From Hyphomicrobiales bacterium (GTDB lineage Bacteria; Pseudomonadota; Alphaproteobacteria; Rhizobiales; Xanthobacteraceae), in contig JAFKKH010000007.1 of assembly GCA_017305665.1 (NCBI GenBank), positions 124,001-188,000 on the forward strand: 64,000 bases of DNA, read 5' to 3'. A program made the position numbers and the translations under genes. The notes beneath the pieces were generated by a model. That model worked only from the letters and a program-made list of their open reading frames with translations, made no database searches and had not been told where the DNA came from. This document shows positions 18,932-64,000 of this stretch, piece after piece. Position 1 is the stretch's first letter. Each line of letters starts with the position of its first letter.

Positions 18932-19019
18932 GCCTAGCAAAAAGCCCTGTCAATAAAGGGCGTTGGAAGATGATTGTGCACTGCCGCGTGCAGTCCGGTC
19001 AGAGGGGTGGAAACAACAC

Positions 19020-19817
19020 GTGGCCTTGGCTGAGGACACTAGCAATCCCGTGCTTGAATGCCGGTCCGTCGAGCGTCGCTTCGGCGGCATCGTGGCATTG
19101 AACGGCATCGACATGGAGATCAGGCGCGGCGAGATATTCGGCCTCGTCGGCCCGAACGGCTGCGGCAAAACGACACTGACGAACGCCATCACGGGTTTCT
19201 ATCCGCCCCAGCGCGGCAACATCCTGTTCAACGGCAACGACATTACCGGCATCGCTCCCCACAAGGTTGCGACTCTCGGAATTGCACGCACCTTCCAGAA
19301 TCTTGCGCTCTTCAACGGCATGAGCGTGCTCGACAACATTCTTCTCGGCCGTCACACCCACATGAAGCCGGGCGTTGCGCGCACCGCGCTCTATTGGTGG
19401 CTGGCGCGGAGTGACGAAACCGCAAACCGTGCGGTCGTGGAGGACGTGATCGACTTCCTTCAGCTCGAAAGCGTTCGCGACGAACTGGTCGACGGCATTC
19501 CGATCGGATTGAAGAAGCGCGTGGAGCTGGCTCGGGCGCTGGCGGCCGAGCCGAACTTCCTGATTCTCGATGAGCCAATGGCCGGTATGAACCAGGAGGA
19601 AAAGGAATACATGGCGCGCTTCATTCTCGATGCGCGCGACGAGCGCAACGTGACCGTGCTTCTCATCGAGCACCACATGGACGTCATCACAGGCATCTGC
19701 GACCGGATGCTGGCGCTGAACTACGGCGCGATGATCGGCTCCGGCAAACCGGCCGACGTGGTCGCCGACCCGCGTGTGGTCGAGGCCTATATCGGAGGCG
19801 CGCATGTCTCCCGTTGA
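19020..19817 (+). CDS. livG: ABC transporter ATP-binding protein, LivG type
   Basis: Cytoplasmic ATPase of a branched-chain-amino-acid-type (HAAT) importer, about 265 residues. Walker A is GPNGCGKTT (44-52), the Walker B segment is NFLILDEPMAG, and the LivG-type signature region IGLKKRVELARALA replaces LSGGQ. The C-terminal YIGG ending is typical of LivG. GTG 19020 is the favoured start; TTG 19026 and a longer frame to 18963 are possible. It opens an operon with an acyl-CoA ligase, LivH, LivM, LivF and a binding protein. The presence of the ligase suggests that the cargo is a carboxylic acid rather than an amino acid. Confidence 0.92.
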   Translation: MALAEDTSNPVLECRSVERRFGGIVALNGIDMEIRRGEIFGLVGPNGCGKTTLTNAITGFYPPQRGNILFNGNDITGIAPHKVATLGIARTFQNLALFNGMSVLDNILLGRHTHMKPGVARTALYWWLARSDETANRAVVEDVIDFLQLESVRDELVDGIPIGLKKRVELARALAAEPNFLILDEPMAGMNQEEKEYMARFILDARDERNVTVLLIEHHMDVITGICDRMLALNYGAMIGSGKPADVVADPRVVEAYIGGAHVSR

Positions 19818-21741: not shown

Positions 21742-21743
21742 AG

Positions 21744-22631
21744 ATGGACGCGCTCCTGCTGCTCGAATCGGCCATCAACGGCGCGCTCGTCGGCCTGATG
21801 TACGCGCTGGTCGCGATGGGGATCGTGCTGATCTACAAATCCTCGTCCGTTCCGAATCTTGCGCAGGGTTCGATGACGATGCTCGGCGCCTATGTGGTGC
21901 TGGCTTTCGCGAACAATGCCGGCGCTCCGATGTGGCTGGCGATCCCGCTCGGCATCGTCACCATGTTCTTTGTCGGCATCGGTATAGAGCGTGTTGCGCT
22001 GCGCCGCCTCGCCGGCCGGCCGATCATCATGATCCTGATGATGACGCTCGGCCTCGAAATCTTCCTGCGCGCCGGCACCATGACGATCTGGGGCGGCACC
22101 GCGCGGCCGATGCCGATCGGCATCAGCGATGCGCCGCTATTCCTCGGACCGCTACTGATCAATCGCGCCTATGCGGTGGGCGCCGCCATCGCGATCGTGA
22201 TGTTCGTCCTGTTCGTGGCGTTCTTCCGGACCCGGCTCGGCGTCGTGCTGCGCGCCATTTCGGACGACTATACCGCGGCGTGGTCCGTCGGCATTTCAGT
22301 CGAGCGCGGCGTCGCGCTGTCATGGGCCATGTCGGCGGTCATGGCCACCATCGCCGGCGTGTTGTGGAGCTCGGTCCAGGGCGCGGACCAGTCGCTCGCG
22401 CTGTTGCTGCTGAAAGGCATCACCGTCGCCGTGCTCGGCGGCATGGACAGCCTCGGCGGAGCTCTGCTGGCGAGCATCCTGCTTGGCGTCGTCGAGGGCG
22501 TCGCCTCGAGCGTCCTCGATCCGATGATCGGCGGCGCAAGCCGCGAACTCGTCGATGCGGCGATGCTGATCCTGACCATCATGATCCGGCCCCACGGCCT
22601 GTTCGGCCGTCACGACATCGAGCGAGTCTGA
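21744..22631 (+). CDS. livH: ABC transporter permease, LivH type
   Basis: Inner-membrane permease of 295 residues with about eight hydrophobic segments, starting with INGALVGLMYALVAMGIVLI, the standard LivH first helix. Later segments include LLKGITVAVLGGMDSLGGAL, the conserved cytoplasmic loop of this family. It should pair with LivM (4 nt downstream) to form the channel and be driven by the LivG and LivF proteins of the same operon. Confidence 0.93.
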   Translation: MDALLLLESAINGALVGLMYALVAMGIVLIYKSSSVPNLAQGSMTMLGAYVVLAFANNAGAPMWLAIPLGIVTMFFVGIGIERVALRRLAGRPIIMILMMTLGLEIFLRAGTMTIWGGTARPMPIGISDAPLFLGPLLINRAYAVGAAIAIVMFVLFVAFFRTRLGVVLRAISDDYTAAWSVGISVERGVALSWAMSAVMATIAGVLWSSVQGADQSLALLLLKGITVAVLGGMDSLGGALLASILLGVVEGVASSVLDPMIGGASRELVDAAMLILTIMIRPHGLFGRHDIERV

Positions 22632-22635
22632 CATC

Positions 22636-23709
22636 ATGCTCTACCGCAAGGCCGGCATCTTCCATACCGACTACGCCGCCGACCGGGCGTTGTTTCCGAT
22701 TCCTGCCGATCGCTGGACGATCGGGCTGCTGCTGCTGATCGCCGCGACGGCGCCGCTCTACATGAACTCGCTCTATCTCAGCAGTTATCTGCTGCCCTGG
22801 CTGGTCTGGACCGCGGCCACACTCGGTCTCAACCTGATTCTCGGCTGGGCGGGACAATTCCATCTCGGCTATGCCGCGGTGATGGGAATCGGCGCCTACG
22901 CCGCCGTGCACGCCGTGCGGACCGGAATTCCCTGGGAAATCGCGATCGTCCTTGCCGGCTTTACCGCTGCGGTCATCGGCATCGGCTTTGCGTTCGCGGC
23001 CCTTCGCGTCAAGGGCCTCTATCTCGCGCTGAGCACGCTTGCCCTGCAATTCGTCATGGACTGGACGATCTCGCATGTCCAGGCGATCAGCGGCGGCACG
23101 CAGGCCACGCTGCAGGCGCCAGACATCCGTCTGCTCGGCATCCCCATCACGTCGGATGCCGGACTTTATTATATCGCGCTGGTCTGGTGCCTTCTGGTGA
23201 CGTCATTCATGCTCAACCTGAAGCGGACCGCACTCGGCCGAGCGCTGGTCGCCGTCCGCGAGAAGGACTATGCGGCAGCCGTCATCGGCGTGAACAGCTT
23301 CTATTTCAAGATGGTCGCGTTCGCGACCTCCTCGTTCATTGGCGGCGTCACCGGCGCGATCCTGATCGGGACCTTCTATCATGCCGTGACGCCCGAACAG
23401 TTCTCGGTGGACGTGTCGATCCAGGCGCTGGCGATGGTGATCGTGGGCGGCCTCGGCAGCATCATCGGAAGCTACTTCGGCGCCGCATTCATCCTGCTGA
23501 TGCCCGGCGTGATGAACAGCTTCATTTCATGGCTCGCCAATCTGCTCGGCCTGTCTCTGAGCCTTGAGACGCTCGCCCATCTGCCTCAGGCGCTGTACGG
23601 AGCGCTGATTATCGTCTTTCTCCTGGTCGAGCCTCTCGGGCTCGGCAAGATCTACAACAATATCCGCGATTACCTTCTGGTCTGGCCATTCGGCTACGTG
23701 AAGAAATAG
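22636..23709 (+). CDS. livM: ABC transporter permease, LivM type
   Basis: Second permease subunit, 357 residues, with nine or more hydrophobic segments. It has the LivM motifs LILGWAGQFHLGYAAVMGIG and VIVGGLGSIIGSYFGAAF. A cytoplasmic N-terminal extension of some 30 residues (MLYRKAGIFHTDYAADRALF) precedes the first helix, as in LivM proteins of transporters linked to acid catabolism. It follows LivH by 4 nt and precedes LivF by 13 nt. Confidence 0.93.
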   Translation: MLYRKAGIFHTDYAADRALFPIPADRWTIGLLLLIAATAPLYMNSLYLSSYLLPWLVWTAATLGLNLILGWAGQFHLGYAAVMGIGAYAAVHAVRTGIPWEIAIVLAGFTAAVIGIGFAFAALRVKGLYLALSTLALQFVMDWTISHVQAISGGTQATLQAPDIRLLGIPITSDAGLYYIALVWCLLVTSFMLNLKRTALGRALVAVREKDYAAAVIGVNSFYFKMVAFATSSFIGGVTGAILIGTFYHAVTPEQFSVDVSIQALAMVIVGGLGSIIGSYFGAAFILLMPGVMNSFISWLANLLGLSLSLETLAHLPQALYGALIIVFLLVEPLGLGKIYNNIRDYLLVWPFGYVKK

Positions 23710-23722
23710 AGGGACGCGCATC

Positions 23723-24529
23723 ATGAGCGAACCGATCGCCGCTAGTGTGCTGACGCTCAACAACGTCGAGGTCGTGTACGACTACGTTTCGCTTGCGATC
23801 AAGGGCGTGTCGCTGGACGTGCCCGAAGGCGGGATGGTGGCCCTGCTCGGCGCCAACGGCGCCGGCAAGAGCACGACGCTGAAATCGATCAGCGGTCTGC
23901 TCGCGGCGGAACGCGGCGAAGTGCGGCGCGGCGACGTCCGGTTCCGCGGCCAGGCTATTGGCGCACTGATGCCGCAGGATCGCGTCCGGCTCGGGATTGC
24001 GCATGTCCTCGAAGGACGGCGAGTGTTTGAACATCTGACACCGTCGGAGAATCTGATCGCCGCATCGGCCTTGCATAGCCGGCAGGACATGAGCCGCAAC
24101 ATGGAGATGGTCTACAGCTATTTTCCGCGCCTTCACGAGCGGCGCGCAACGCCGGCCGGCTATCTGTCCGGCGGCGAGCAGCAGATGCTGGCGATCGGCC
24201 GCGCGCTGATGACCCAGCCGAAGCTATTGATGCTCGACGAGCCGAGCCTTGGCCTTGCGCCGTTCCTCGTCGCCGAGATCTTCCAGATTCTCAGCCGCAT
24301 CAATCGCGAGGAGGGCTTGTCGATCCTGCTCGTGGAGCAGAACGCCATCGCCGCGCTGGAGATCGTTTCGCACGGCTATCTGATCGAGAGCGGCCGCATC
24401 GTCATGCATGACAGCGCCGAGGCTCTGAAGAGAAACCCCGACATTCAGGAGTTCTATCTCGGCGGTGCCGAGAACAAGAACTTTCGCGACATCAAACATT
24501 ATCGCCGCCGGAAGCGATGGCTGACGTAA
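23723..24529 (+). CDS. livF: ABC transporter ATP-binding protein, LivF type
   Basis: Second ATPase of the importer, 268 residues. Walker A is GANGAGKST (43-51), the signature YLSGGEQQMLAIGRALM is intact, and Walker B is KLLMLDEPSLGLAP. It ends in a basic tail (HYRRRKRW) longer than in most LivF proteins. ATG 23723 follows GAGGGA. It forms the heterodimeric motor with the LivG protein of the same operon. Confidence 0.93.
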   Translation: MSEPIAASVLTLNNVEVVYDYVSLAIKGVSLDVPEGGMVALLGANGAGKSTTLKSISGLLAAERGEVRRGDVRFRGQAIGALMPQDRVRLGIAHVLEGRRVFEHLTPSENLIAASALHSRQDMSRNMEMVYSYFPRLHERRATPAGYLSGGEQQMLAIGRALMTQPKLLMLDEPSLGLAPFLVAEIFQILSRINREEGLSILLVEQNAIAALEIVSHGYLIESGRIVMHDSAEALKRNPDIQEFYLGGAENKNFRDIKHYRRRKRWLT

Positions 24530-24590
24530 GGCAGCCGGACTTCCGGAGGTTCATGCCGTTTTCTTGAGACTACATAATGGGAGGAAAACA

Positions 24591-25841
24591 ATGAGAAGAT
24601 TGCTTTGTAGCTTGGCGGCCATGGCCTTTGCCGTGGCCGGAACGTTCCCTGCAGCGGCTGCGGACCCGGTCAAGTTCGCACTGTGTTACGACCTGAGCAA
24701 GGCCTACACGTTCGTGACGCCGCAGATTGCTCAGGCCGCAAAAGACTATGCCGCGCTGCTGAATATGAAGGGCGGCATCGAGGGCCATCCGATCGATGTT
24801 ATCGTTCAGGATCACGGCAACGAGCCCCAACGCGGCATCGAATGCTATGAGAAGCTGAAGCGCGAAGGGGTTATGGTGTTCGACATGCTGTCGACACCGG
24901 TGTCACGTGCCGTGCTGCCGCGCATCATGAAGGACGGCAACATCCTGCTGCAGTCGCTGGTCGGCCGCGGCGATGCGATCGACGGCGACGTGTTCAAATG
25001 GGTGTTCCCGATCGGCCCGACCTATTGGGGCCAGGCCGCCAACGACATCGAATACATCAAGCAGAAGTCGGGCGGAAAGCTGAAGGGCGTCAAGGTCGCG
25101 TTTCTCTACATCGACTATCCCTTTGGACAGGAGCCGATCGGAATCCTGAAGACACTGGCGCAAAAAGAAGGGTTCGACCTGCAACTGTTCCCCTACCCGC
25201 TGCCCGGCAACGAACAGGCATCGGCATGGACCCAGATCCGGCGCTACAACCCGGACTGGATCGTCAGTTGGAGTCTGTCGAAGATGCACATCATCGCATC
25301 GCGCGAGATGAAGCGTAACGGCATTCCGATCGACAAGTATATCGCGGTGAACTGGCTCAACGAGGTCGATATCAATAACATCGGCCCCGCCGAGGCCAAG
25401 GGTCTGAAGCGCGGCACCAACGTCGCCGGCGGCTCCAACCACCCCATCATCCAGGAGATCATCAAGGAGCTCTACGACAAGGGCAAGGGCAACGGCGACC
25501 GCAAGAATCTGGAGGACGTCTATTACAACACCGGGCTTGCGATCTACTCCATTGCTTTCGAAGGCGCCCGCCTCGCCATCAAGAAGGACGGCTGGCCGCT
25601 GACGCCGCAAAAGATCAAGGATGGCTTCGAAAGCCTGAAGGATTACGACGCCAACGGGCTGATGGCGCCCGTTACCGTGACCGCGCATGATCACGGCGGC
25701 GGCGGCAAGACCCGCATTGAGATGTGGGACGGCGCCAAATGGGTTCCGCAGACCGACTGGATCGCGGGTTTCTCGGACGAGGTCTGGAAAGTCGTAAAAG
25801 ACGAATCGGCCAAATACGCAAAGGAAGAGCCTCAGAAATAA
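24591..25841 (+). CDS. ABC transporter periplasmic substrate-binding protein, LivK type
   Basis: Exported binding protein of 416 residues. A Sec signal peptide is clear: MRRLLCSLAAMAFAVAGTFP followed by AAAAD, with cleavage likely after Ala-Ala. The mature part is a type I periplasmic binding protein (VKFALCYDLSKAY...). ATG 24591 has a strong GGGAGG upstream; a longer frame to 24564 is rejected. It is the last gene of the operon, 61 nt after LivF, and should deliver the cargo to LivHM. The ligand cannot be read, but the adjacent acyl-CoA ligase points to a carboxylate. Confidence 0.92.
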   Translation: MRRLLCSLAAMAFAVAGTFPAAAADPVKFALCYDLSKAYTFVTPQIAQAAKDYAALLNMKGGIEGHPIDVIVQDHGNEPQRGIECYEKLKREGVMVFDMLSTPVSRAVLPRIMKDGNILLQSLVGRGDAIDGDVFKWVFPIGPTYWGQAANDIEYIKQKSGGKLKGVKVAFLYIDYPFGQEPIGILKTLAQKEGFDLQLFPYPLPGNEQASAWTQIRRYNPDWIVSWSLSKMHIIASREMKRNGIPIDKYIAVNWLNEVDINNIGPAEAKGLKRGTNVAGGSNHPIIQEIIKELYDKGKGNGDRKNLEDVYYNTGLAIYSIAFEGARLAIKKDGWPLTPQKIKDGFESLKDYDANGLMAPVTVTAHDHGGGGKTRIEMWDGAKWVPQTDWIAGFSDEVWKVVKDESAKYAKEEPQK

Positions 25842-32583: not shown

Positions 32584-33783
32584 TTACGGCGTGTTGAAGT
32601 TCTTGAGCACCGGCTTCGCAGTGGCCTTCTCGGGCGGCCATACCGTCACGAGCTTGTCGCCCTGGAACTGGGTGATGGTGGTGTCGCGCCCCTTGTTGCG
32701 GCCATTCTGGTCGAACTCCAGATAATCCGACGACGTGATCATCTCGTCCTTGGCGAACTTCACCTTGCGGAGCGCGTCGGCGATATCGGCCGGCTTGAAG
32801 CTCTTCGCGGAATCGAGCGCCCGGATCGCCACCTTGGTGCCGAAATAGCCAAGCGCCGAGTTCAGCGTCAGCGGCTGCTGGAATTTCTTCTCGAAGGCCG
32901 CGCCGATCTTCTGCGCCGCTGGAAGATCGGCCGAGAACGGCGTCACGGCGAATTGCCAGGCCACCAGCTTGCCGAGTTCTTTGCGCAGCTTCGGATCGCC
33001 CGACATGCCGCCGGTGCCGATCACGATGGGATGGAAGTCAAGCTGCTCGTAAGCTTTCGATGCCAGCACACCGGCCCGGAAGTAACCGACCTGGATCACG
33101 ATATCCGGCTGCGAGGCCTTCACCTTGAGCGCCGGCTGCAGCAGATCCTGCGCCGCCGCACCGTAGTCGATGAACGAGACGACCTTGAGGTCCTTGCGGT
33201 CGGCCAGTTGCGCCTTGAGCTGCTTGCCCATCTCGATGCCGTATTCATTGTCGGGACAGAGCACGGCGATCTTGGTCTTCTTCGGATCGAGCTTGTGCAC
33301 CATGTCGAGCGCATGGAAGATGCCGGCGACGTAGTCGCTGTCGATCAGCGTGGTCGACCATGTCCACTTCAGGCTGCCGTTGGTCATGGATTCCTGCTGT
33401 GGAATCGTATTGATGTGCGGAACGCCGTATTTCTCCGCGACCTGCGACAACGGAACAGTTTCGTTGGAGGTCGCTGCGCCCATGACCAGCACGACCTTCT
33501 CCTGATTGATCAGCCGCTCCGTTTCGCCGACCGCATTCACCGGCTTGCTCTGCGAATCGCCCTTGACCAGTTCGATTTGCGCGCCGCCATGATTTTTCAG
33601 GCCGCCTGCCGCATTGGCTTCCTCGATGGCAAGCTCGGTGCCGCGCATGCCGTCGCCGCCGCCGACCGCACCGGGTCCGGTCAATGCATAGACCGCGCCG
33701 ACCTTGACGGCCTCGGCAGCGCTGGCGTTGAACGCCGCCAGCAAAATCGTTGTTGAAAGAAAAAATCCAACCATGCGTTTCAT
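32584..33783 (-). CDS. ABC transporter periplasmic substrate-binding protein, LivK type
   Basis: Exported binding protein of 399 residues with a Sec signal peptide (MKRMVGFFLSTTILLAAFNA, cleavage likely after SAA). The mature protein begins like type I binding proteins (VKVGAVYALTGPGAVGGGDG). It follows LivF in the minus-strand operon and should feed the LivHMGF transporter encoded at 33814-37064. The ligand is unknown. Confidence 0.92.
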   Translation of the reverse strand: MKRMVGFFLSTTILLAAFNASAAEAVKVGAVYALTGPGAVGGGDGMRGTELAIEEANAAGGLKNHGGAQIELVKGDSQSKPVNAVGETERLINQEKVVLVMGAATSNETVPLSQVAEKYGVPHINTIPQQESMTNGSLKWTWSTTLIDSDYVAGIFHALDMVHKLDPKKTKIAVLCPDNEYGIEMGKQLKAQLADRKDLKVVSFIDYGAAAQDLLQPALKVKASQPDIVIQVGYFRAGVLASKAYEQLDFHPIVIGTGGMSGDPKLRKELGKLVAWQFAVTPFSADLPAAQKIGAAFEKKFQQPLTLNSALGYFGTKVAIRALDSAKSFKPADIADALRKVKFAKDEMITSSDYLEFDQNGRNKGRDTTITQFQGDKLVTVWPPEKATAKPVLKNFNTP

Positions 33784-33813: not shown

Positions 33814-34524
33814 TCAGATTCCGAGATAGGCTTGTTTGACTCGCGGGTCCGCCATCAGACCGGAGGCCGGGCCTTCCATCGCAAAATGCCCCTGCTCGAG
33901 GACGTAGCCATGATCGGCGACCTCAAGCGCCAGCGCCGTGTTCTGCTCGACGACAAGGATCGTCATGCCCTGCGCCGCCAGCCGGCGCACCGCGACGAAG
34001 ATCTCGTCGACGACGATCGGCGCAAGACCGAGGCTGGTTTCGTCGAGCAGCAACAGTCGCGGCGACGCCATCAACGCGCGGGCGATCGCAACCATCTGCT
34101 GTTCGCCGCCCGACAGCGTGCCGGCGCGCTGCGCGCCGCGTTCGCGGACTTTCGGGAACAACCCGAACACCATTTTCAGATTTTCGTCGCGCCGGGGACG
34201 CGCGGTTGGCGACGACGAGCCGATCAAAAGGTTCTCGAACACGGTCATGTCCGGGAACAGGCGGCGGCCCTCCGGCACCTGGACAAGGCCAGCGCGGACG
34301 ATGTCCTGCGGCGGCTTGCCGAGGATATCTTGACCGTCGTACCGGATCGATCCGGCCTCGGCAGGAATGATCCCGGATATCGTGCGCAGCAGCGTGGTCT
34401 TGCCGGCACCATTGGCGCCGATCAGGGCGGTGATGCTCCCGGCCTGAATGGAGAGATCGATTCCTCGCAACACGGGCACATCGCCGTAACCGGCGTGCAG
34501 GCCTTTGACATCAAGCAGCGCCAT
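33814..34524 (-). CDS. livF: ABC transporter ATP-binding protein, LivF type
   Basis: ATPase of 236 residues, the usual LivF length. Walker A is GANGAGKTT (36-44), the signature is LSGGEQQMVAIARALM, and Walker B is RLLLLDETSLGLAP, with Thr in place of the usual Pro after DE. It overlaps the LivG gene by 14 nt and is followed by the binding-protein gene. Confidence 0.93.
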   Translation of the reverse strand: MALLDVKGLHAGYGDVPVLRGIDLSIQAGSITALIGANGAGKTTLLRTISGIIPAEAGSIRYDGQDILGKPPQDIVRAGLVQVPEGRRLFPDMTVFENLLIGSSSPTARPRRDENLKMVFGLFPKVRERGAQRAGTLSGGEQQMVAIARALMASPRLLLLDETSLGLAPIVVDEIFVAVRRLAAQGMTILVVEQNTALALEVADHGYVLEQGHFAMEGPASGLMADPRVKQAYLGI

Positions 34525-35245
34525 GATGCCTCCTGCCGAGGTAGGCCTCGATCACGGCGGGATCGGCTGCAACAGTGGCCGGCAGCCCTTCCGCAATCTT
34601 GCGGCCATTGGCCATCACCACGAGCCGATCCGATAGCGACATGATCGCGCGCATGACGTGTTCGACGATCAACAGCGCGATGCCCTCGCGCCGGATGTCG
34701 GCAAGGATCACCATGATCTCGTCGATCTCCGCCGGCGTGAGGCCGGCCATGACTTCGTCGAGCAGCAACAGCCGTGGACGCGTGGCGAGTGCACGCGCGA
34801 TCTCTAGCCGCTTCTTCTCGGGCAATGACAGGTTGCGCGCCAGCACGCCCGCCCGATGATCGAGCCGAACGCGGGTCAGGACCGCCATCGCCTCGGCGCG
34901 CGGGTCGGACGTCTCGCGGTTCGGGCCCAGCACGCCGGCGACCACGTTCTCCAGCACGGAAACATCCCGGAACGGCTGCACGATCTGAAAGGTGCGGCCG
35001 ATGCCGAGCCGGGCCAGGCGATGTGGCGGATGGCCAGTGATATCGCGGCCATCGAACGTGACAGCGCCCTTGGTCGGGCGAATGAAGCCGGAGATGGTTT
35101 CGAACAACGTGGTTTTGCCGGCGCCATTCGGACCGATCAGGCCGACGATCTCATGACTTTCCAGATTGAATGAGACCTCGTCCACGGCACGCAAGCCACC
35201 GAACCAGCGCGAGACGTTGCGAACTTGCAAAAGCGGCGCGCTCAT
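34511..35245 (-). CDS. livG: ABC transporter ATP-binding protein, LivG type
   Basis: ATPase of 244 residues. Walker A is GPNGAGKTT (38-46), the signature region is LSLPEKKRLEIARALA and Walker B is LLLLDEVMAGL; Val replaces the usual Pro after DE. The ATG at 35245 overlaps the LivM stop (ATGA). It pairs with the LivF protein to power the LivHM channel of this operon. Confidence 0.93.
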   Translation of the reverse strand: MSAPLLQVRNVSRWFGGLRAVDEVSFNLESHEIVGLIGPNGAGKTTLFETISGFIRPTKGAVTFDGRDITGHPPHRLARLGIGRTFQIVQPFRDVSVLENVVAGVLGPNRETSDPRAEAMAVLTRVRLDHRAGVLARNLSLPEKKRLEIARALATRPRLLLLDEVMAGLTPAEIDEIMVILADIRREGIALLIVEHVMRAIMSLSDRLVVMANGRKIAEGLPATVAADPAVIEAYLGRRHHGAA

Positions 35246-36192
35246 GCCCGCCTCCGTGCGATCGCATCGCTGAGCAGACCCCAGAGGCCGCGCGGCGCCA
35301 GCCGCATCACCAGCACGAGGATGACGCCGTAGACGATCAGGTGAATGCCGGCGAGTCGACCGGCCAGCATGCCGCGAAGAAGTTCAGTGAGCGGCACCAG
35401 CACGACGGTGCCCAGCAAAGGTCCGAATAGCGAACCGAGGCCACCGACAAAGGAAAACACCAGCGCGTCGATCGAAACGGTGACGCCGAGCACGGACTCC
35501 GGATCGATGAACAGCACGTAGTTGGCGTAGATCGGCCCAACCAGCGCGGCAAGTGCGCCGCTGATCGCCGCCGCGATCACCTTGCCCTGCACGACGTCGA
35601 TGCCGAGCGCAGCGGCGGACCGCTCATTTTCCCGGATCGCCAGAAAGACATAGCCGAGCCGCGAGCGATGAATGGCGATGATGACGATTGCAGCCACGGT
35701 GAGAACGGCGAGCGCCGCGTAGCAATAACCGAGCTTGGAGGTGAACTGCAGATTCGCCAGCGAGGGCCGCGCCGGTATAGCCAGGCCATTGGCCGCGCCG
35801 AGCACCGACACGTTGCTGACGATGTGCAGCGCCATCTCGGCGAGCGCAAGCGTTACCAGCGCGAAATAGACGCCGGACAACTTGCGGCGAAACACCGTGT
35901 AGCCCATCAGCGCACCGAGTGCGCCGCCGAGACAGGCCGCAAGCACCAGGCCAATCCAGGGACTGATACCGAGGTTGAGATAGAGCGCCGTGGACAGATA
36001 AGCACCCGCGCCGACAAACAGCGCGTGCCCCAGCGACATCTGGCCGGCCATGCCGCCGAGGATATTCCAGGCGAGCGCCACCGAGCCATAAAGCGCAACC
36101 AGAACGAAGATATGCTGACCGTAGATCGACAGGAACGGCGCCACGGCGGCGAGCACCGCGACGACGAGGCCGAGCGCAAGCATCGGTTTCAT
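35242..36192 (-). CDS. livM: ABC transporter permease, LivM type
   Basis: Inner-membrane permease of 316 residues with nine or so hydrophobic segments. Family motifs are ILGGMAGQMSLGHALFVGAG and SFVGGLGSLFGPLLGTVVL. The ATG at 36192 overlaps the LivH stop (ATGA); the longer open frame to 36603 is a shadow inside the LivH gene. It forms the channel with LivH. Confidence 0.93.
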   Translation of the reverse strand: MKPMLALGLVVAVLAAVAPFLSIYGQHIFVLVALYGSVALAWNILGGMAGQMSLGHALFVGAGAYLSTALYLNLGISPWIGLVLAACLGGALGALMGYTVFRRKLSGVYFALVTLALAEMALHIVSNVSVLGAANGLAIPARPSLANLQFTSKLGYCYAALAVLTVAAIVIIAIHRSRLGYVFLAIRENERSAAALGIDVVQGKVIAAAISGALAALVGPIYANYVLFIDPESVLGVTVSIDALVFSFVGGLGSLFGPLLGTVVLVPLTELLRGMLAGRLAGIHLIVYGVILVLVMRLAPRGLWGLLSDAIARRRA

Positions 36193-37064
36193 AGCCGGCG
36201 CCCTCCCAGCAATCCCTCCGGCCGGAACAGCAGGAACAGGATGAAGATGGCGTAGGTGATGATGAAGTTGATCGAGCCGCCGGTCAGCAGGCCGCCGACC
36301 GCCTCGACGAGGCCGATGATGAACCCGCCAATCAGCGCGCCGACGAAGTTGCCCATGCTGCCGAGCACGACGACGATGAATGCCGTCAGCGTGAAACTCG
36401 AGCCGACCGACGGGCTGACATAGTTGAACGGCGCAATCAGCGGCGCCACCAAACCGAGCGAGCCGATACCGATACAGAACGCAATCAAATACATCCTGTC
36501 GACATTGACGCCGCTCATCAGCGCCGCGTCGCGATCCTGCGCAGCCGCGCGGATCTGACGGCCGAGTTCGGTCGACCGCAGCAGCCAATACAGTCCGAGA
36601 CACACAGCGATCGACGCAGCACTGGCAATCAGTGCCGCGGCCTGAATGAAGACATTGCCGATCCGCACGATCTGCCCCGAAAGCACCGACGGCATGGTGT
36701 GCAGATCCGCAGTGAAGATCGCGAGCATCGCGTTTTGCAGGATCAGCGACAGACCGAGCGTCACCACGATCTGGTTGTGCTCGGGCGCGAGAATGACCGG
36801 CGCGATGAGCAGCCTGTAGGTGAAGGCGGCGGCCAGCGTGACCAGCGGCAGCACAAGAACCAGCGACAGATAGGGATCGAGGTGAAGCCAGGTCGCGCCG
36901 AGATAGGTCAGGTACAACCCGAGCGCGAGGAAATCGCCATGGGCAAAATTCACGATCCGGAGTACGCCGAAAGTCAGCGTCAATCCCACCGCGACGATCG
37001 CGTAGACGGCACCGAGCAGGAGCCCGTCCGCGAGCGCCTGGGGAAGAAGCGGCAGCAAATCCAT
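36189..37064 (-). CDS. livH: ABC transporter permease, LivH type
   Basis: Inner-membrane permease of 291 residues, beginning with a typical LivH first helix (ADGLLLGAVYAIVAVGLTLT). It is the first gene of the minus-strand operon that runs through LivM, LivG, LivF, the binding protein, the NDP-forming synthetase and the thiolase/DUF35 pair. The promoter must lie in the 256-nt gap before the divergent GntR gene, where the probable GntR operator at 37233-37249 is found. Confidence 0.93.
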   Translation of the reverse strand: MDLLPLLPQALADGLLLGAVYAIVAVGLTLTFGVLRIVNFAHGDFLALGLYLTYLGATWLHLDPYLSLVLVLPLVTLAAAFTYRLLIAPVILAPEHNQIVVTLGLSLILQNAMLAIFTADLHTMPSVLSGQIVRIGNVFIQAAALIASAASIAVCLGLYWLLRSTELGRQIRAAAQDRDAALMSGVNVDRMYLIAFCIGIGSLGLVAPLIAPFNYVSPSVGSSFTLTAFIVVVLGSMGNFVGALIGGFIIGLVEAVGGLLTGGSINFIITYAIFILFLLFRPEGLLGGRRL

Positions 37065-55256: not shown

Positions 55257-56654
55257 CTATGCTCCGCGCGCACGCATGAACGTCGCCGCTTCTTCGCCCG
55301 CGATTTTTCCGTATACCACCGACCGCAGCATCGACACCGCGTTCGGCGCGGTTCCATGGAAATGGGCGGTCATTTCGCCAGCGGCATAAAGCCCGGGAAT
55401 CGGCAGATCATTCCGCAGAACCTCCGCCTTTTCATTTGTGGCAACACCGCCAAACGTATAAGCGATTGCTCCGATCAACGGATAGGCAAGGAACGGCGGT
55501 TTGCCGATCGGTCGCGCCCAATTCGACTTCGGCGGCATCAATCCCGTCGCGGCGGACAGGCCGTCGCAATGTGTGGCATCGAAGCGCGCGACATCGCCAG
55601 TTGCTGCGGCATTGAACGTCTCGATCGTTCGCTGCAAGGCCCGCGGCGGTACATCGATCATCCGCGCAAGATATTCGATCGTTGCGGCCTCGAACGGCGG
55701 CACATCCGAACGGATCGCGCGTTCGAAACCGGCGATGTCACGTAGCCTGCTATCGAGAATCGCATAGGCGATCGATCCGGGTCGATTGAGATGGATATCC
55801 CGCGCGAAGGTTTCCCAGGTTTCATGAACGAGGCCCGCCCCCTCATCGAAGAAGCGGTTGCCGTTTTTTTCGACCACGATGCCATAGGGATAGACCAGAA
55901 CTACCGGCGCCGGCTTTCGGCTGCGCGGATCGACCGGCTCGGCATGCATCCCGTTCCAATCGCCCGACGGCGTTGCACCGGCCGCGATCGCAAGACGGAT
56001 GCCGTCGCCAGTATTGAAGGATGACCCAGGCGAGATCATCGCCATCGTGCGCGCGCCTGCACCGAAGAACTCGGCCATCATATCCGGATTGCCCTGAAAG
56101 CCGCCGCTTGCGAGCACGATGGCATCCGAATCAATTTTGGAGTCGCCGTTGAGTTCAACACCCCGCACAATTCCGCCTTCGACAATCAATCGTGTGGCAG
56201 ATGCTTCATAGCGGATCGTCACGCCCATGCGGCGGGCGGCCTTCAGCAACTGATCGATGAGAGCGGCGCCGCCGCCAATCGGCTGGATGCGCGGCGGACC
56301 GGCACTCAGGTAATAGGTCGGGGTATCAAACCGCACGCCATGCGCTTCGAGCCACTGCATGGTCGCCGGCGCATGCTCGGCAAGCCTGCGGAAATAAACC
56401 TTGTCGGCCCTTCCCCCGGACGCATGCTGCATGTCTGCTTCGAAATCCGGCGCGATGCGACCCGGCGCGGCCATCCGCATGTAGGACGGACTCCAGCGCG
56501 AATTGCCGCCTGCGGCGTCTTCCCTGGCTTTTTCCAGTAGCGCAATCTCGATCGGGGTTTGCTCGCGAGCCGCATGCTCGGCTGCGCTCACCGCGGCCGA
56601 TAAACCCGCTGCTCCCTGACCAACGATGACAAGTCTCTTGACGTTTGCTGCCAT
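55257..56654 (-). CDS. FAD-dependent oxidoreductase, fumarate reductase/tricarballylate dehydrogenase-like
   Basis: Flavoprotein of 465 residues. FAD-binding motifs are VIVGQGAAGLSAAVSAAEHA and the C-terminal LPIPGLYAAGEMTAHFHGTA. The AGGNSRWSPSYMRMA segment and the lack of a signal peptide or heme domain fit a soluble TcuA-like dehydrogenase rather than a respiratory fumarate reductase. It is not closely similar to the KstD-like protein at 52118; the two probably act on different substrates. The gene is 39 nt after the SDR gene and belongs to the minus-strand operon starting at 59254. Confidence 0.9.
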   Translation of the reverse strand: MAANVKRLVIVGQGAAGLSAAVSAAEHAAREQTPIEIALLEKAREDAAGGNSRWSPSYMRMAAPGRIAPDFEADMQHASGGRADKVYFRRLAEHAPATMQWLEAHGVRFDTPTYYLSAGPPRIQPIGGGAALIDQLLKAARRMGVTIRYEASATRLIVEGGIVRGVELNGDSKIDSDAIVLASGGFQGNPDMMAEFFGAGARTMAMISPGSSFNTGDGIRLAIAAGATPSGDWNGMHAEPVDPRSRKPAPVVLVYPYGIVVEKNGNRFFDEGAGLVHETWETFARDIHLNRPGSIAYAILDSRLRDIAGFERAIRSDVPPFEAATIEYLARMIDVPPRALQRTIETFNAAATGDVARFDATHCDGLSAATGLMPPKSNWARPIGKPPFLAYPLIGAIAYTFGGVATNEKAEVLRNDLPIPGLYAAGEMTAHFHGTAPNAVSMLRSVVYGKIAGEEAATFMRARGA

Positions 56655-56693: not shown

Positions 56694-57398
56694 TCAGGTT
56701 ACCAAGGCGCCACCGTCGATATAGACGATCGCCCCGGTCGCAAAGCCGATCGTCATGAATGCGAGAATCTGCCGTGCGATGTCGTCACCGACACCGACCC
56801 GCCCGACGGGAAGCGCCGCGGCGATCTTGGCCAGCATGTCCTGACGCGCGGCTTCCGGCATCGCGGCACGGATCGGTGTATCGATGATGCCCGGCGAGAC
56901 GGCATTGACGCGCACCGGAGCGAGATCGATGGCAAGGCTGCGAGAGAGAGATTCCAGCGCACCGTTGGCCGCGCCGACAATCGCCGAGTTTGGACGCGGC
57001 CGAATGCTGAGAAAACCCGAGACCAACGTCAGCGATCCGCCCGGCTTGATATTCGCCGACCGCGCCACGCGCCACGCGCCCCAGAACTTCCCTTCCATCG
57101 TCAAACGCACATCGTCCATCGATACCGTCTTGAACGGACCGGACTTCAGTTGCGCGGCCGTTACGACCACATGGTCGACTTCGCCCACGCTTCTGAACAG
57201 GCTTTCGATGCTGTCGTCGCTGGTGACGTCCGCCACAATGGCTTTCACCGACAGCGCGTTGGCGGCGACATTCAGACGCTCCGCATTGCGCGATGCGATG
57301 ATGACCTCGGCGCCCTCGCGCTTGGCGAGTTCGGCCGTGGAGAACCCAATGCCTGACGAGCCGCCGACCACCACGACCTTTTGCCCCTGTAGCTGCAT
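56694..57398 (-). CDS. SDR-family protein without the catalytic Tyr and Lys
   Basis: Short-chain dehydrogenase fold protein of 234 residues. The cofactor motif is GGSSGIGFSTAELAKREG and the C-terminal RVNAVSPGIIDTPIR and GAIVYIDGGALVT are standard. Where YxxxK is expected it reads SAIVGAANGALESLSRSLA, with Val and Asn in place of Tyr and Lys. It may be a non-classical enzyme, a binding protein or catalytically dead. ATG 57398 has AAGGAAC upstream; the longer frame to 57449 is rejected. It lies between the ThDP enzyme and flavoprotein genes. Confidence 0.9.
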   Translation of the reverse strand: MQLQGQKVVVVGGSSGIGFSTAELAKREGAEVIIASRNAERLNVAANALSVKAIVADVTSDDSIESLFRSVGEVDHVVVTAAQLKSGPFKTVSMDDVRLTMEGKFWGAWRVARSANIKPGGSLTLVSGFLSIRPRPNSAIVGAANGALESLSRSLAIDLAPVRVNAVSPGIIDTPIRAAMPEAARQDMLAKIAAALPVGRVGVGDDIARQILAFMTIGFATGAIVYIDGGALVT

Positions 57399-57457
57399 GG
57401 CACGTTCCTTGTTGTGCTGTTTCTCTTCTCGGCGATGCAGAACCGCCACGTGATCGA

Positions 57458-59254
57458 TTAAGGGTCGAACTGGACGCCGATGCCCGGCTTGCTGCGGCCG
57501 AGGCCTGGCAACTCCCAGACGCCCGCACCTGACGGATTGACGTCAGCGGCAATATCCACATCGATCAGATAGGGCTTGTTGGCTGCGATGCCTTTCTTGA
57601 TCGCGTCTCCGATATCCGCCGCACGATCGACGCGCACGCCCTCGACGCCGCACGAGCGCGCCATCGCTGCAAAGTCCGGATTGTAGCGTTGCCCCGTTAC
57701 AGGATCGTGGAAGTCGGTCGCGAGTTCGCGGCCTTCCAGATATCCTCGCTGCAAGCCGCGGATCGATGCGTAAGCGTAGTTATTCCAGACCACCCAGACC
57801 ACCGGCAGATTGTACTCAACCGCCGTGCCCAGCACATTGGCATGCATGAAGAACGCGCCATCACCACACACCGAGACGCATGGCCGATCTGGCGCCGCGA
57901 ACTTCGCACCCATGACGCCGGCAACACCGAATCCCATCGGACCGAATCCCATCGAGCCGATCAGCGAATCCGGCCGGCGCGGCTTGCAGAAACCGAGCAG
58001 CCAGTTGTGGTGCACACCGATATCGCTGACGAGAATGGCGTCCTCCGGCAGCGCCTTGTCGATTTCGTGCGCGGCGCGCTGCGGATTAATCGGCACGCTG
58101 TCATCGGAAAAGCCCGGTGCGACGAACTTGTCCCATTCCTGACGATAGGTATCGATCTGCGCCAGCCACTTCCTGCGCGCGTCTTCCCGCTTCGACACGT
58201 CGCGGCGATCGAGCTCCGCATGAATCTGGCGCAGAAAGGTCCTAACATCGGCCATCAGGCCAAGGGCAACCGGATAATTTCGTCCGATTTCCTCCGGATC
58301 GATATCGACATGGATCAGGCGCGTCGGCGGAATCGTGAAGGAATAGCCGGGAATCCACGAACTCGAGGTGCGATCGTCGAAACGCACGCCGAGCGCCAGC
58401 AGGACGTCTGCCTGCCGCGTGGCGTGATTGGCCTGATAGTGTCCGGCACGCGCGACCAGACCGAGCGCGAGCGGATGGTTCATATCGAGCGCACCCATCC
58501 CGCTCGCCGAGAAGGCAACTGGAATCTGAAGACGTTCGGCAAGCCGCTTGAGTTCTTCGGCGGCACCACCGTAGCGAACGCCTTGTCCGACGAGCATGAC
58601 CGGCCGGTCGGCATTGAGCAGCATGTCGACGGCCTTGACGACACCTTCCGGGTCGGCTCCGCAGCGGCTCGAAATATTGGCATTCCACGCCTGCGCGTTC
58701 GGTGCCTCCTGCGAGGCAGATTCCATGAACACGTCAAACGGGACGTCGAGCACCACCGGTCCCGGCCGTCCGGTCACCATTGTCTTCCAGGCCTGCCGCA
58801 CAGCCAACGGCACCATCTCGCCGCGTGTCGGCTGAAACACCTTCTTGCAGATCGAGCGGACCGTGGAAGGAAAGTCTGCCTGATAGTGACGGTACATCTC
58901 CTGAAACGCACCGCGATTGAACTGGCTCGTCGGCACGTTGCCGGTCACGGCCAGAAACGGAACGGAATCGAGATATGCGTTGGCCAATGAGATTGGCAGA
59001 TTCGCTGAACCTGGACCGCAAGACGTGAACGTCGCCGTCGGCTTGCCCGATACGCGGTAATAAACGTCGGCCATGAAGCCGGCGACACTCTCATGGTGCG
59101 TGGAGATCGTCTTGATTTCGCTCGACCGCTCATACAGCGCATCGATGAATTGGATGTTGCCATGACCGCAGAGCCCGAACACCTGCGGCACCTTTTCCTG
59201 GATGAGATAATCGACGATGACTTGAGCACCGTTCAAAGTATTGCGCGACGGCAT
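57458..59254 (-). CDS. Thiamine-diphosphate-dependent enzyme, acetolactate-synthase-like
   Basis: ThDP enzyme of 598 residues with the three-domain layout of acetolactate synthase and benzoylformate decarboxylase. The catalytic Glu55 is in THHESVAGFMADVYYR, the central domain has VMLVGQGVRYGGAAEELKRL, and the ThDP/Mg motif starts at Gly464-Asp-Gly and ends in VVWNN. It cleaves or ligates 2-oxo acids; no regulatory subunit gene is nearby, so a catabolic decarboxylase or lyase is more likely than amino-acid synthesis. ATG 59254 has GGGAG upstream. It is the first gene of the minus-strand operon and is divergent from the binding protein at 59595. Confidence 0.92.
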   Translation of the reverse strand: MPSRNTLNGAQVIVDYLIQEKVPQVFGLCGHGNIQFIDALYERSSEIKTISTHHESVAGFMADVYYRVSGKPTATFTSCGPGSANLPISLANAYLDSVPFLAVTGNVPTSQFNRGAFQEMYRHYQADFPSTVRSICKKVFQPTRGEMVPLAVRQAWKTMVTGRPGPVVLDVPFDVFMESASQEAPNAQAWNANISSRCGADPEGVVKAVDMLLNADRPVMLVGQGVRYGGAAEELKRLAERLQIPVAFSASGMGALDMNHPLALGLVARAGHYQANHATRQADVLLALGVRFDDRTSSSWIPGYSFTIPPTRLIHVDIDPEEIGRNYPVALGLMADVRTFLRQIHAELDRRDVSKREDARRKWLAQIDTYRQEWDKFVAPGFSDDSVPINPQRAAHEIDKALPEDAILVSDIGVHHNWLLGFCKPRRPDSLIGSMGFGPMGFGVAGVMGAKFAAPDRPCVSVCGDGAFFMHANVLGTAVEYNLPVVWVVWNNYAYASIRGLQRGYLEGRELATDFHDPVTGQRYNPDFAAMARSCGVEGVRVDRAADIGDAIKKGIAANKPYLIDVDIAADVNPSGAGVWELPGLGRSKPGIGVQFDP

Positions 59255-59594: not shown

Positions 59595-60833
59595 ATGAAA
59601 CGACACACACGGCGTCAGGTTTTGCAGGCCGGCGCGGCACTCGCTGGATCCGCGACCCTCGGCTTTCCTTCCATCAGCTACGGTCAGAGCGACAAGATCA
59701 AGATCGGCCATCTGACGCCGCTCACCGGCTTTCTCGGCGCGCTCGGGGCCTATGCGCAACTCGGAATCCGCATGGCGGCCGAAGAGATCAATCAATCGGG
59801 CGGCGTGATGGGCCGGCAGATCGATCTGATGTCGGAAGATTCGGTCAACCCGGCGACCGCCGCCACCAAGGCACAACGCATGCTGGAGCAGGACGGAGCT
59901 GTCGTCCTCATGGGCGAAATCAATTCAGCATCGGCCCTGACCATCATGCAGGTCGCCGCGCGCAACAAGAAACTCTACATGCAGATCGGTGCGCGTTCGG
60001 ATGCGCTGCGCGGCAAGAACTGCAATCGCTACACCTTCCATGTCGATATTCCCAACACAGTAATGGTCAATGCTGTCGGCGCAGCGCTGCTGCGCGACAA
60101 CATGGTGAAGGGCAAGAAGTTCTTCACGCTGACGGCGGACTATATTTTCGGACACGACCTGCTGGGCGCCGCCAAGCGATTCTTCAGTGCCAACGACGGC
60201 AATCTTATCGGCGACGAGTTGATCGCGACCGACGTAACCGACTTCAGCCCATATCTGCTCAAGATCCGCCAGGCCAAACCCGACATCGTCTGTTCGAACC
60301 TCGCGGGAAACCAGGTCACGACGCTGATCAAGCAATATGCCGAGTTCGGCCTGCCCTACCCGATCGTCGGGTTCAACCTGAACACCGCCGACGCATGGGC
60401 AGCCGGTGAAGGCAATCTCGCCGGGACATGGCCGACGGTCTGGTATCACACGCTCGATGTTCCAGCCTCGAAGACCTTCGTCGCAAACTTCATCAAGAAG
60501 CACGGCAAGCCGCCGGAGAACCACGCCTGGATCGAATACATTTCGTTGAAGATCATGGCGCAGGCGATGAACGCCACCAAGTCGACGGATACGGAAGCGC
60601 TGATCGCCTACCTCGAAAAGGAAACCGAGTTCGATATCCTGAAGGCGCGCAAGGGTCACTTCCGCTCCTGGGATCATCAACTGATGCAGGAAGCCTATCC
60701 GTTCACGATCAAGGCCAAGGGCGAGGCCAAGGACAAATGGGACTTGCTGGCACTTGGGGCTGCCGTTCCCGGGCCGAACGAGAAACTCGAGGTGCTCGCG
60801 CCGACGCGTGAGCAGAATCCCTGCACGCTGTAA
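59595..60833 (+). CDS. ABC transporter substrate-binding protein, LivK type, probable Tat export
   Basis: Periplasmic binding protein of 412 residues. The N-terminus MKRHTRRQVLQAGAALAGSA has a twin-arginine motif (RRQVL) before a moderately hydrophobic segment, suggesting Tat export, unlike the Sec-type signals of the other three binding proteins here. The mature part (IKIGHLTPLTGFLGALGAYA) has the type I fold. It precedes LivH by 69 nt and should be the receptor of the LivH/LivMGF transporter. Confidence 0.92.
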   Translation: MKRHTRRQVLQAGAALAGSATLGFPSISYGQSDKIKIGHLTPLTGFLGALGAYAQLGIRMAAEEINQSGGVMGRQIDLMSEDSVNPATAATKAQRMLEQDGAVVLMGEINSASALTIMQVAARNKKLYMQIGARSDALRGKNCNRYTFHVDIPNTVMVNAVGAALLRDNMVKGKKFFTLTADYIFGHDLLGAAKRFFSANDGNLIGDELIATDVTDFSPYLLKIRQAKPDIVCSNLAGNQVTTLIKQYAEFGLPYPIVGFNLNTADAWAAGEGNLAGTWPTVWYHTLDVPASKTFVANFIKKHGKPPENHAWIEYISLKIMAQAMNATKSTDTEALIAYLEKETEFDILKARKGHFRSWDHQLMQEAYPFTIKAKGEAKDKWDLLALGAAVPGPNEKLEVLAPTREQNPCTL

Positions 60834-60902: not shown

Positions 60903-61769
60903 ATGTTCCTGCTCGAACAGGTGGTCAATGGCCTCGTGCTCGGAGGCTACTACCTGCTGGTGGCGCTGGGGTTGTCGCTGATCTTCAGCGTCGGCGGCAT
61001 CGTCAATCTCGCGCATGGCGCGTTCTATGCACTCGGGGCCTATGCCTCGCTCGAAATCGCCAAATACACCGGCTTCGGCCCCTCTGTCGTGCTGTCGCCG
61101 GTCGCAGTCGCCTTGCTTGGCATCCTGTTCGAACGGTTCATTCTGAGACGGTTTTATACCGCCGATCCGGTTCTCAGCCTGCTCGTGACGTTCGGCCTTG
61201 CAATGCTCACCGAGCAGCTGATCCGGATCATCTGGGGAGCATCGCCGCTCCCGGCAACCATTCCACCGACGTTTCGCGGCTCGATCATCGTTGGCGATTT
61301 CCTGTTCTCGCGCTACCGGCTGCTTCTGCTCGGTGTGGTCGCCGCGGTTCTGTTGGGAATCTGGCTGTTGCTGCAGAAAACCTCGTTCGGCCGCGTGGTG
61401 CGCGCAGGCATCCAGCGGCCGGACATGGTCGCGGCGCTCGGGATAAAGTTACAGCCTTACATGACGACAGTCGTGATGATCGGCGTCGGAATGGCGGCCA
61501 TGGCCGGCGCGTTCTTCGCACCCATCACCATCGTGCAGCCGGCGATGGGAGCCGAGATCATCAACGTCGCCTTCGTCGTCGTGGTGATCGGCGGCCTCGG
61601 CAGCTTCTGGGGCGTCGTCATCGCTTCGCTTCTGGTCGGCGTGGTGCGTGGCATCACCATTCATTTCGCGCCCGCAGCCGGTGAAGCATCGATCTATGTC
61701 CTGCTGTTTCTGGTGCTGATGCTTCGCCCGCGCGGATTACTCGGCGAGCGCATCGAGAAATTCGAGTGA
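60903..61769 (+). CDS. livH: ABC transporter permease, LivH type
   Basis: Inner-membrane permease of 288 residues with about eight hydrophobic segments (VNGLVLGGYYLLVALGLSLI first). It carries the family loop VVIGGLGSFWGVVIASLLVG. It is followed after 2 nt by a single open frame that joins the remaining three transporter parts, so the whole importer would be made of only three proteins. Confidence 0.93.
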   Translation: MFLLEQVVNGLVLGGYYLLVALGLSLIFSVGGIVNLAHGAFYALGAYASLEIAKYTGFGPSVVLSPVAVALLGILFERFILRRFYTADPVLSLLVTFGLAMLTEQLIRIIWGASPLPATIPPTFRGSIIVGDFLFSRYRLLLLGVVAAVLLGIWLLLQKTSFGRVVRAGIQRPDMVAALGIKLQPYMTTVVMIGVGMAAMAGAFFAPITIVQPAMGAEIINVAFVVVVIGGLGSFWGVVIASLLVGVVRGITIHFAPAAGEASIYVLLFLVLMLRPRGLLGERIEKFE

Positions 61770-61771
61770 AC

Positions 61772-64000
61772 ATGGCTTCCCGCATCTATCAATACCGGCC
61801 TCTGCTGATCGCCATCGTAGCATTGATTGGTCTGCCGCTGCTGGTCCAGGTGCTGGGCCTGTCGCTCAATACGGCGATTGCCATTGTGGCCCTGAGCATT
61901 GCCGCCATGGGCCTGAATGTGTGCGTCGGCTACACCGGCCTCGTCTCGTTCGGGCACGCGACATGGTTCGGTATCGGCGCCTATGCGGCCGGCCTGATCC
62001 AGCTCCATGTCTTCGGCGGCGAGATCTGGCTGCCGATCCTGCTCTCAATGCTGGTGGTCGCGATACTCTCGGCCGCGACCGGTGCGCTGATGTTGCGCCG
62101 TCGCGGCGTCTACTTCTCGCTGTTGACGCTGGCTTTCGCCGCACTGGTCTATACGGTCGCCTTTCGCTGGAGCGAAGTCACTGGCGGCGAAGACGGGCTC
62201 GGCGGCCTCAAGCGCGGCGTCATTGGCTCATGGTCTCTCGACAACTCGCTACACTACTACGTCGTGACATCGCTGATCGCGCTTGCTGTGCTGTTGTTTC
62301 TGCAGCGGTTGACGCGATCATCTTTCGGCCATGTGCTGGTCGCCATCCGTGAAAACACCCAGCGTGCATCGTTTCAGGGCTATCGCATCGAGCACTACAA
62401 ACTCGCCGCCTTCGTCATTTCAGCCGTCATCACCGGGTTGGCCGGCACGCTGGTTGCCTTCCAGACCTATCTGGTATCCGCCGAGGCCGTCTCGGTCGCC
62501 TTTTCCGGCGAACTCCTGGCGATTGTCGTCATCGGCGGCATGCGCAACCTGCTCGGACCCGCCCTCGGTGCGCTGTTCTTTATCCTGTTTCGCGAACTGC
62601 TTTCGATCTGGACCCCGAACTGGTTGCTTTGGTTCGGGCTGATCTTCGTCAGCTTTGTCATATTTTCGCCGGACGGCCTCATCGGCATCTGGGCCAAACT
62701 GCAGCGGCGCTGGAAGCCTCAGCCATCGCTGGCATCGGCGATGAGCAAACGGAAAATCTATGAGGGACTGCCGCTGCCATCCTTCCTGCGGCCCGAAAAT
62801 TCGAACGGAGCCGTACTGCGCGTCGACGGCATTGCCAAGCAATTCGGTGGCATCCAGGCCGTGAAGCATGCAGACATTTCGATCAATTCAGGCCAGATCC
62901 ATGCGCTGATCGGCCCCAACGGTGCCGGCAAGACGACGCTGTTCAACCTGATCTCGGGAATGTTCACCCCCGACAAGGGCACGGTGATCCTCCACGGACG
63001 TGAGATCGGCAAAGAGCGGCCGAACGACATCTGTGACGCAGGCCTGGCGCGCTCCTTTCAGATCACCAACCTCTTCCGCGGTCTGACGATCCGCGAAAAC
63101 ATGAGGCTTTCGCTGCAGGCTCGGCATCATCTCGGTTTCAACGTCTGGCACGACATCGATAGCCATCATGTCGTCAATGCCGAAACAGCGGAACTGATCA
63201 AGTTTCTCGGCCTTGAAGGAATCGAGAACATCCTTGCTGGCGACCTGTCTTATGGCGGCCAGCGTCTCGTCGATCTCGGCATTGCGCTTGGCTGCAAGCC
63301 GGAGGTGCTCCTGCTCGACGAGCCGTTGGCTGGCCTCGCCGCAGCAGAACGCGAACGCGTCGCGCGGCTGGTCAAGGAGATATCCGAACGCGTTCCTGTT
63401 CTCATTGTCGAACACGACATCGACCGCGTGCTCAGCCTGTCACACGTGGTCACCGTGATGAATCAGGGCGAGGTTCTGATGAGCGGTGCGCCAGACGCCG
63501 TGCGCAACGATCGCCGTGTCCAGGAAATCTATACCGGAACCGGCGTTCCACCGGTAGAACATGCCCGTACGCCCGAAGAACAGCAGCATTCGCGGGAAGT
63601 TCTCAAGGTTACGGACGTGAATACGTTCTACGGGAAAAGTCACATCCTCAACAACGCAACACTCGACGTTCGGCAAGGCGAAATCGTCGCACTGCTGGGG
63701 CGCAATGGCGCCGGAAAATCTACTTTTCTGAAATCGATTGCCGGTCTTGTTCCACCAAAGTCCGGAATGGTCGAACTCGATGGCCGGAATATCGCCGGCC
63801 TCTCCGCGCCCGATATCGCACGGCTTGGGATCGGCTACGTTCCGCAAGGGCGTGGGCTCTTCGCCGGGATGTCCGTCGCCGACAACCTGTCGCTCGGTCG
63901 GCTGGCCCGCAAGACGGATGGCAGCGACGGTGTCGTCTGGAGCGAGGAGCAGATCTTTGAGTTCTTCCCCCGGCTGAAAGAGCGGATGAACGTTGCGGCC
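61772..64000 (+). CDS. LivM-LivG-LivF fusion protein (permease plus two ATPases), cut by the window end
   Basis: One uninterrupted frame of 743 codons to the last base. Residues about 1-325 are a LivM-type permease (LSIAAMGLNVCVGYTGLVSF near the start, AIVVIGGMRNLLGPALGALF later). A linker leads to a LivG-type ATPase (about 347-590) with Walker A GPNGAGKTT at 381-389, LSYGGQ at 492-497 and LLLDEPLAGL (Asp516-Glu517). After a polar linker (about 591-609, TGTGVPPVEHARTPEEQQHS) a LivF-type ATPase starts at about 610, with Walker A GRNGAGKST at 643-651 and VPQGRGLF. I translated every codon and found no stop or frameshift. ATG 61772 lies 2 nt after LivH. LivM-LivG fusions are known; a triple fusion is unusual. 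The end of the LivF part lies outside the window. Confidence 0.9.
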   Translation, partial: MASRIYQYRPLLIAIVALIGLPLLVQVLGLSLNTAIAIVALSIAAMGLNVCVGYTGLVSFGHATWFGIGAYAAGLIQLHVFGGEIWLPILLSMLVVAILSAATGALMLRRRGVYFSLLTLAFAALVYTVAFRWSEVTGGEDGLGGLKRGVIGSWSLDNSLHYYVVTSLIALAVLLFLQRLTRSSFGHVLVAIRENTQRASFQGYRIEHYKLAAFVISAVITGLAGTLVAFQTYLVSAEAVSVAFSGELLAIVVIGGMRNLLGPALGALFFILFRELLSIWTPNWLLWFGLIFVSFVIFSPDGLIGIWAKLQRRWKPQPSLASAMSKRKIYEGLPLPSFLRPENSNGAVLRVDGIAKQFGGIQAVKHADISINSGQIHALIGPNGAGKTTLFNLISGMFTPDKGTVILHGREIGKERPNDICDAGLARSFQITNLFRGLTIRENMRLSLQARHHLGFNVWHDIDSHHVVNAETAELIKFLGLEGIENILAGDLSYGGQRLVDLGIALGCKPEVLLLDEPLAGLAAAERERVARLVKEISERVPVLIVEHDIDRVLSLSHVVTVMNQGEVLMSGAPDAVRNDRRVQEIYTGTGVPPVEHARTPEEQQHSREVLKVTDVNTFYGKSHILNNATLDVRQGEIVALLGRNGAGKSTFLKSIAGLVPPKSGMVELDGRNIAGLSAPDIARLGIGYVPQGRGLFAGMSVADNLSLGRLARKTDGSDGVVWSEEQIFEFFPRLKERMNVAA

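Follow-up and report, generated by a model that had tools for sequence, protein, structure and literature searches.

A LivM-LivG-LivF fusion in a Liv-type ABC importer operon of a Hyphomicrobiales bacterium

Five-gene Liv/Bra transporters consist of the same five functional parts as the operon described here, and in them LivM, LivG and LivF are separate genes, whereas here the three are joined in one gene (M-G-F architecture). Such an architecture is not new, being common in related bacteria and carrying a standard database name. Among the best 40 of the 133 records of a plasmid collection matching the fusion (E 1e-100), at least 10 annotate the match as a single gene, 'branched-chain amino acid ABC transporter ATP-binding protein/permease', and in several others the match covers distinct genes; in four of the 10 so-named records, which were inspected, the single gene follows a LivH gene. 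The present protein falls within the PGAP 'ATP-binding protein/permease' class, as permease, LivG and LivF domains occur in that order in one gene. Regarding the literature, none of the titles and abstract beginnings of the best matches pointed to functional work on a fusion of this type, and the only mention met in the search, as far as the accessible part of the source goes, is a table entry for Azospirillum brasilense, 'Putative ABC transporter (protein fusion consisting of two ATP-binding domains and permease)', given there with no family or order (PMC4295147); the accessible parts of PMC2821768 and PMC3223731 have no bearing on the M-G-F fusion.

The frequency of the architecture was estimated in genome samples, where the fusion was matched in 46 of 119 genomes of the family, its own included (E 1e-120 or better), with no match at E 1e-120 in the four same-genus genomes listed. 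When LivH was used as the query in a sample of the phylum, 9 of 398 genomes were matched, again including its own (E 1e-70). The rarity implied by the earlier note on this DNA is thus corrected, as the architecture is widespread among relatives and already named in databases, and the complete protein is now supplied.

The window, meaning the whole analysed stretch of 64,000 nucleotides (G000:C20:124001-188000), contains the operon close to its end, arranged as follows:

55257..56654, - strand: FAD-dependent oxidoreductase, tricarballylate-dehydrogenase-like, under the cut-off of that model
56694..57449, - strand: short-chain dehydrogenase, with a counterpart of at least 50% identity in 37 of 80 relatives, counted regardless of flank
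57458..59254, - strand: thiamine-diphosphate (TPP) enzyme, acetolactate-synthase-like by family searches, divergent
59595..60833, + strand: substrate-binding protein, Peripla_BP_6 (PF13458, E 5.5e-75), found in all 72 relatives with a long enough flank
60903..61769, + strand: LivH-type permease, a separate gene (PF02653), upstream in all 76 relatives with a long enough flank
61766..62740, + strand: LivM-type permease domain, residues 1-325 (Pfam PF02653; modelled as helical in the relative L007)
62741..62809, + strand: LivM-LivG linker, residues 326-348, opening with the conserved MS[RK]RKIYEGLPLP
62810..63538, + strand: LivG-type ATPase domain, residues 349-591 (ABC_tran, weak PF12399, NCBIfam LivG/UrtD)
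63539..63595, + strand: LivG-LivF linker, residues 592-610, between the LivG model end (591) and the LivF model start (611)
63596..64000, + strand: LivF-type ATPase domain, residues 611-846 (Pfam, NCBIfam), cut by the window, with 306 nt more beyond it

The fusion is real and complete. It is a single frame on the + strand, starting at 61766 (GTG), where it overlaps the LivH stop by 4 nt, or at 61772 (ATG), and it has no stop from 61766 to the window end at 64000, in agreement with the earlier reading of an open frame across 61772-64000. Extension into the source contig located the true C-terminus, with the stop at L006:8307, equivalent to window position 64306 and 306 bases beyond the window end, giving a product of 846 residues counted from the GTG. 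A complete LivF following the fusion, which would have spoken against it, is absent: the next gene (L006:8354-9112), read from the other strand, codes for an ABC ATPase of another type, whose best NCBIfam matches are proV and a taurine ATPase, both under cut-off, and which clusters with a putative permease (L006:9109-9921) and a putative binding protein (L006:9918-10904), labelled from their translations. This ATPase is no LivF of the fusion operon. The opposite-strand cluster as a whole (L006:8354-16285) holds this second ABC importer together with CoxG-like, amidohydrolase and molybdopterin-dehydrogenase genes.

The order LivM, LivG and LivF proposed earlier agrees with the domain searches, as Pfam places BPD_transp_2 (PF02653) at residues 34-294, followed by two ABC_tran stretches. 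The BCA_ABC_TP_C motif characteristic of the LivG C-terminus (PF12399) was found at 569-593, where its score of 23.3 bits is under the curated cut-off of 25.5. The NCBIfam LivG/UrtD models match best in the first ATPase (349/350-591) and the LivF/UrtE models in the second (611/613-838/833), each also matching the other half, and the curated models PRK11300 (LivG; 286.3 of 362 bits) and PRK11614 (LivF; 245.5 of 441 bits) remain under cut-off for the fusion. The motifs that we take to be the Walker A, signature, Walker B and H-loop of both ATPases are fully or at least 90% conserved in a 46-row alignment, where no column beyond residue 745 can be invariant because the window's own row ends there. 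The signatures are LSYGGQ in the first ATPase and LSGGEQQ in the second, and the Walker A motifs previously numbered 381-389 and 643-651 from the ATG at 61772 correspond to 383-391 and 645-653 from the GTG. In the region of the LivM-LivG linker, A325, M326, P338 and L341 are invariant in the same alignment.

The AlphaFold2 model of L007, a relative 86-87% identical to the fusion, has a mean pLDDT of 81.2 and a moderate pTM of 0.69; in it a helical region precedes two regions of mixed strands and helices. When this model was submitted to a fold search, the top five rows were subunits of ATPase pairs such as OppD (best 8j5q_D, E 7.2e-26, TMq 0.42) and most of the best 50 rows were full-length exporters such as ABCB1; no TMq exceeded 0.44 among the matches listed, so that the search is uninformative on assembly. 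Searching solved structures with the fusion itself returned single ATPase domains and exporters among the best 60 of 572 matches.

The operon holds every part of a Liv/HAAT-type system, namely BPD_transp_2 permeases, LivG-like and LivF-like ATPases and a Peripla_BP_6 binding protein, and very probably encodes an ordinary Liv-type ABC importer with LivM, LivG and LivF in one polypeptide, a judgement that concerns the fused importer and not its substrate. By analogy with the family, the two ATPase domains of the chain would most probably pair with each other and its permease domain with the separate LivH, so that the G and F domains of one chain would serve both LivM and LivH, while the separate binding protein would hand the substrate over. 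The working importer would then need the products of three genes where the usual one needs five, its M:G:F ratio would be set at 1:1:1 and LivH would have no ATPase of its own, because the architecture joins the three parts.

Whether the fusion might be an assembly artefact, or a frameshift joining separate genes, was addressed with the best 80 of 147 confirmed stretches retrieved by the whole fusion. The M, G and F domains share one frame in 80 of 80 relatives, counting those with at least 60% of each domain covered and repeating the count at 50% identity or more. Neither a stop nor a frameshift occurs at the linkers, which the earlier note had singled out for checking; the LivG-LivF linker is open in frame in the relatives, and the frame is the same in independent assemblies of these. 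Two relatives (L043 and L063) reach contig ends, and in one, L067, the match length is no multiple of three and the frame is shortened, the loss lying in the permease half and not in a linker; this is the sole point in favour of an artefact, and nothing of the kind applies to the window itself. As a whole-fusion query favours fused copies, LivH alone was searched as a correction, giving 41 places in the 119 family genomes (E 1e-60 or better), with the fusion directly adjoining 40 of them; this search reached down to 43% identity and left out clade B of the trees described below, whose LivH is 27-29% identical. The remaining LivH (G048:C381) is found near the end of a 3.3-kb contig, and another contig of that genome (C707) carries fusion residues 228-846 in one frame. 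The artefact reading is refuted for the family, since in the relatives all three domains share a frame, and its probability for this locus is practically nil.

It could also be supposed that a free LivG-LivF protein is made in addition, by initiation at the conserved Met326. The codon is ATG in 36 of 36 loci matching the MS[RK]RKIYEGLPLP-type linker pattern, that of the window included, many of these 36 have a GGAAGAA-like stretch upstream of it, and the residue is unchanged across the 46 alignment rows. However, the pattern was matched in just 36 of the 81 scanned loci, the window's own sequence has no GGAAGAA-like stretch before the ATG, and conservation extends to the residues near Met326, as would be expected from protein function alone, making an internal start very improbable. 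A urea or short-amide importer of the Urt type is equally hard to credit, even though the fusion has its best NCBIfam matches, above cut-off, to UrtD and UrtE, and the binding protein its best to UrtA. The UrtD and UrtE scores, as well as that of LptB, whose model is also above cut-off, sum two ATPase domains, whereas UrtA reaches 112.5 of the 492.75 bits needed for the binding protein and UrtB 173.4 of 250.3 for LivH, and no urease family was detected by Pfam among 25 neighbouring proteins. The urea transporter UrtABCDE was rejected as the equivalog cut-offs of UrtA and UrtB were missed.

Returning to the Liv-type importer, its substrate can be guessed from the neighbouring genes, and the tentative proposal, at somewhat less than even chances, is an organic acid with a cyclic or aromatic structure, as opposed to a branched-chain amino acid. 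Near the operon are the TPP enzyme, the short-chain dehydrogenase, two FAD oxidoreductases, a TIM-barrel protein and an aldehyde dehydrogenase. The TPP enzyme, which scores below the cut-offs of the best 25 of 49 NCBIfam models, has a counterpart of at least 50% identity in 49 of the 69 relatives whose flank is long enough, and is divergent and upstream in 40 of these 49; its absence from the other 20 of 69 at this identity counts against the proposal. Two distant plasmid relatives have as neighbours shikimate dehydrogenase and TIM-barrel genes in one case and TPP-enzyme and sugar-phosphate-isomerase genes in the other, with cupin genes also near; nothing of this kind lies in the stretch shown around two other plasmid relatives, which also counts against the proposal.

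The origin of the M-G-F fusions was studied in trees of the concatenated M, G and F domains from 72 operons (41 M-G-F, 26 separate, 4 M-G plus F and 1 M plus G-F), built with FastTree, IQ-TREE LG+G4 and an IQ-TREE mixture model. The M-G-F rows had been found by their match to the window fusion, a search by which other domain orders could not be found. In all three trees the M-G-F rows form two clades, with 2 state changes, and a single clade of all M-G-F operons was rejected, with a p-AU of 0.00116 (LG+G4) and 0.00096 (mixture) in a test run after the trees had been seen. In single-domain FastTree trees, the state changes numbered 3 for G, 2 for F and 3 for M. Support for the deep nodes is low, a number of terminal branches are long, some rows are unusual in composition, and gains and losses cannot be told apart by counting changes. 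Two origins are suggested because the M-G-F fusions form two separate clades, and it is about an even question whether the architecture arose at least twice independently, with the same order and with LivH left separate both times. An M-G fusion as the step before M-G-F was also considered and rejected, as the four M-G fusions of this genome are scattered over the tree, without any of them grouping as sister to an M-G-F clade (low support).

A double origin would be a mildly new point and, if true, would indicate a built-in asymmetry, in which LivM and not LivH tolerates carrying both motors. The natural fusions would then be single-chain constructs in which each ATPase can be mutated separately at fixed stoichiometry, and with which it could be asked whether the two ATPase sites of a heterodimeric importer are equivalent.

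Comparing the fusion with other systems, the window was said to contain two conventional five-part transporters, and both are present, one at 18963-25841, with five parts by Pfam, and one at 33814-37064, with four parts by Pfam and a probable binding protein (32584-33783) known only from a BLAST match of 23% identity. The genome (5.0 Mb) gave 61 loose first-look LivH candidates, which are not counted loci, and the four same-genus genomes listed (3.4-4.0 Mb) gave 4 to 12. A 590-residue frame at about 73-75 kb of the contig G000:C20 (L092:2228-4000) appears to join LivH and LivM, with its start beyond the fetched stretch. The LivM-LivG fusions of the genome (L088-L091) join two of the three parts, as does the LivG-LivF gene of Thermus oshimai pTHEOS01 (L140). 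That gene (L140:3267-4727), annotated as one, lies next to aromatic ring-hydroxylating dioxygenase genes. A second M-G-F fusion of the genome (L087:5954-8455; G000:C20:232977-235445), about 47 kb further along the contig, has the same order, with binding protein and LivH upstream, and is 41% identical to the window fusion. The single gene of Skermanella rosea pSR-3 (WP_203101472.1; 2517 nt) has the same domains in the same order after binding protein and LivH genes and is 57.8% identical to the window fusion, with neighbours of its own, a GntR regulator upstream and CreA downstream.
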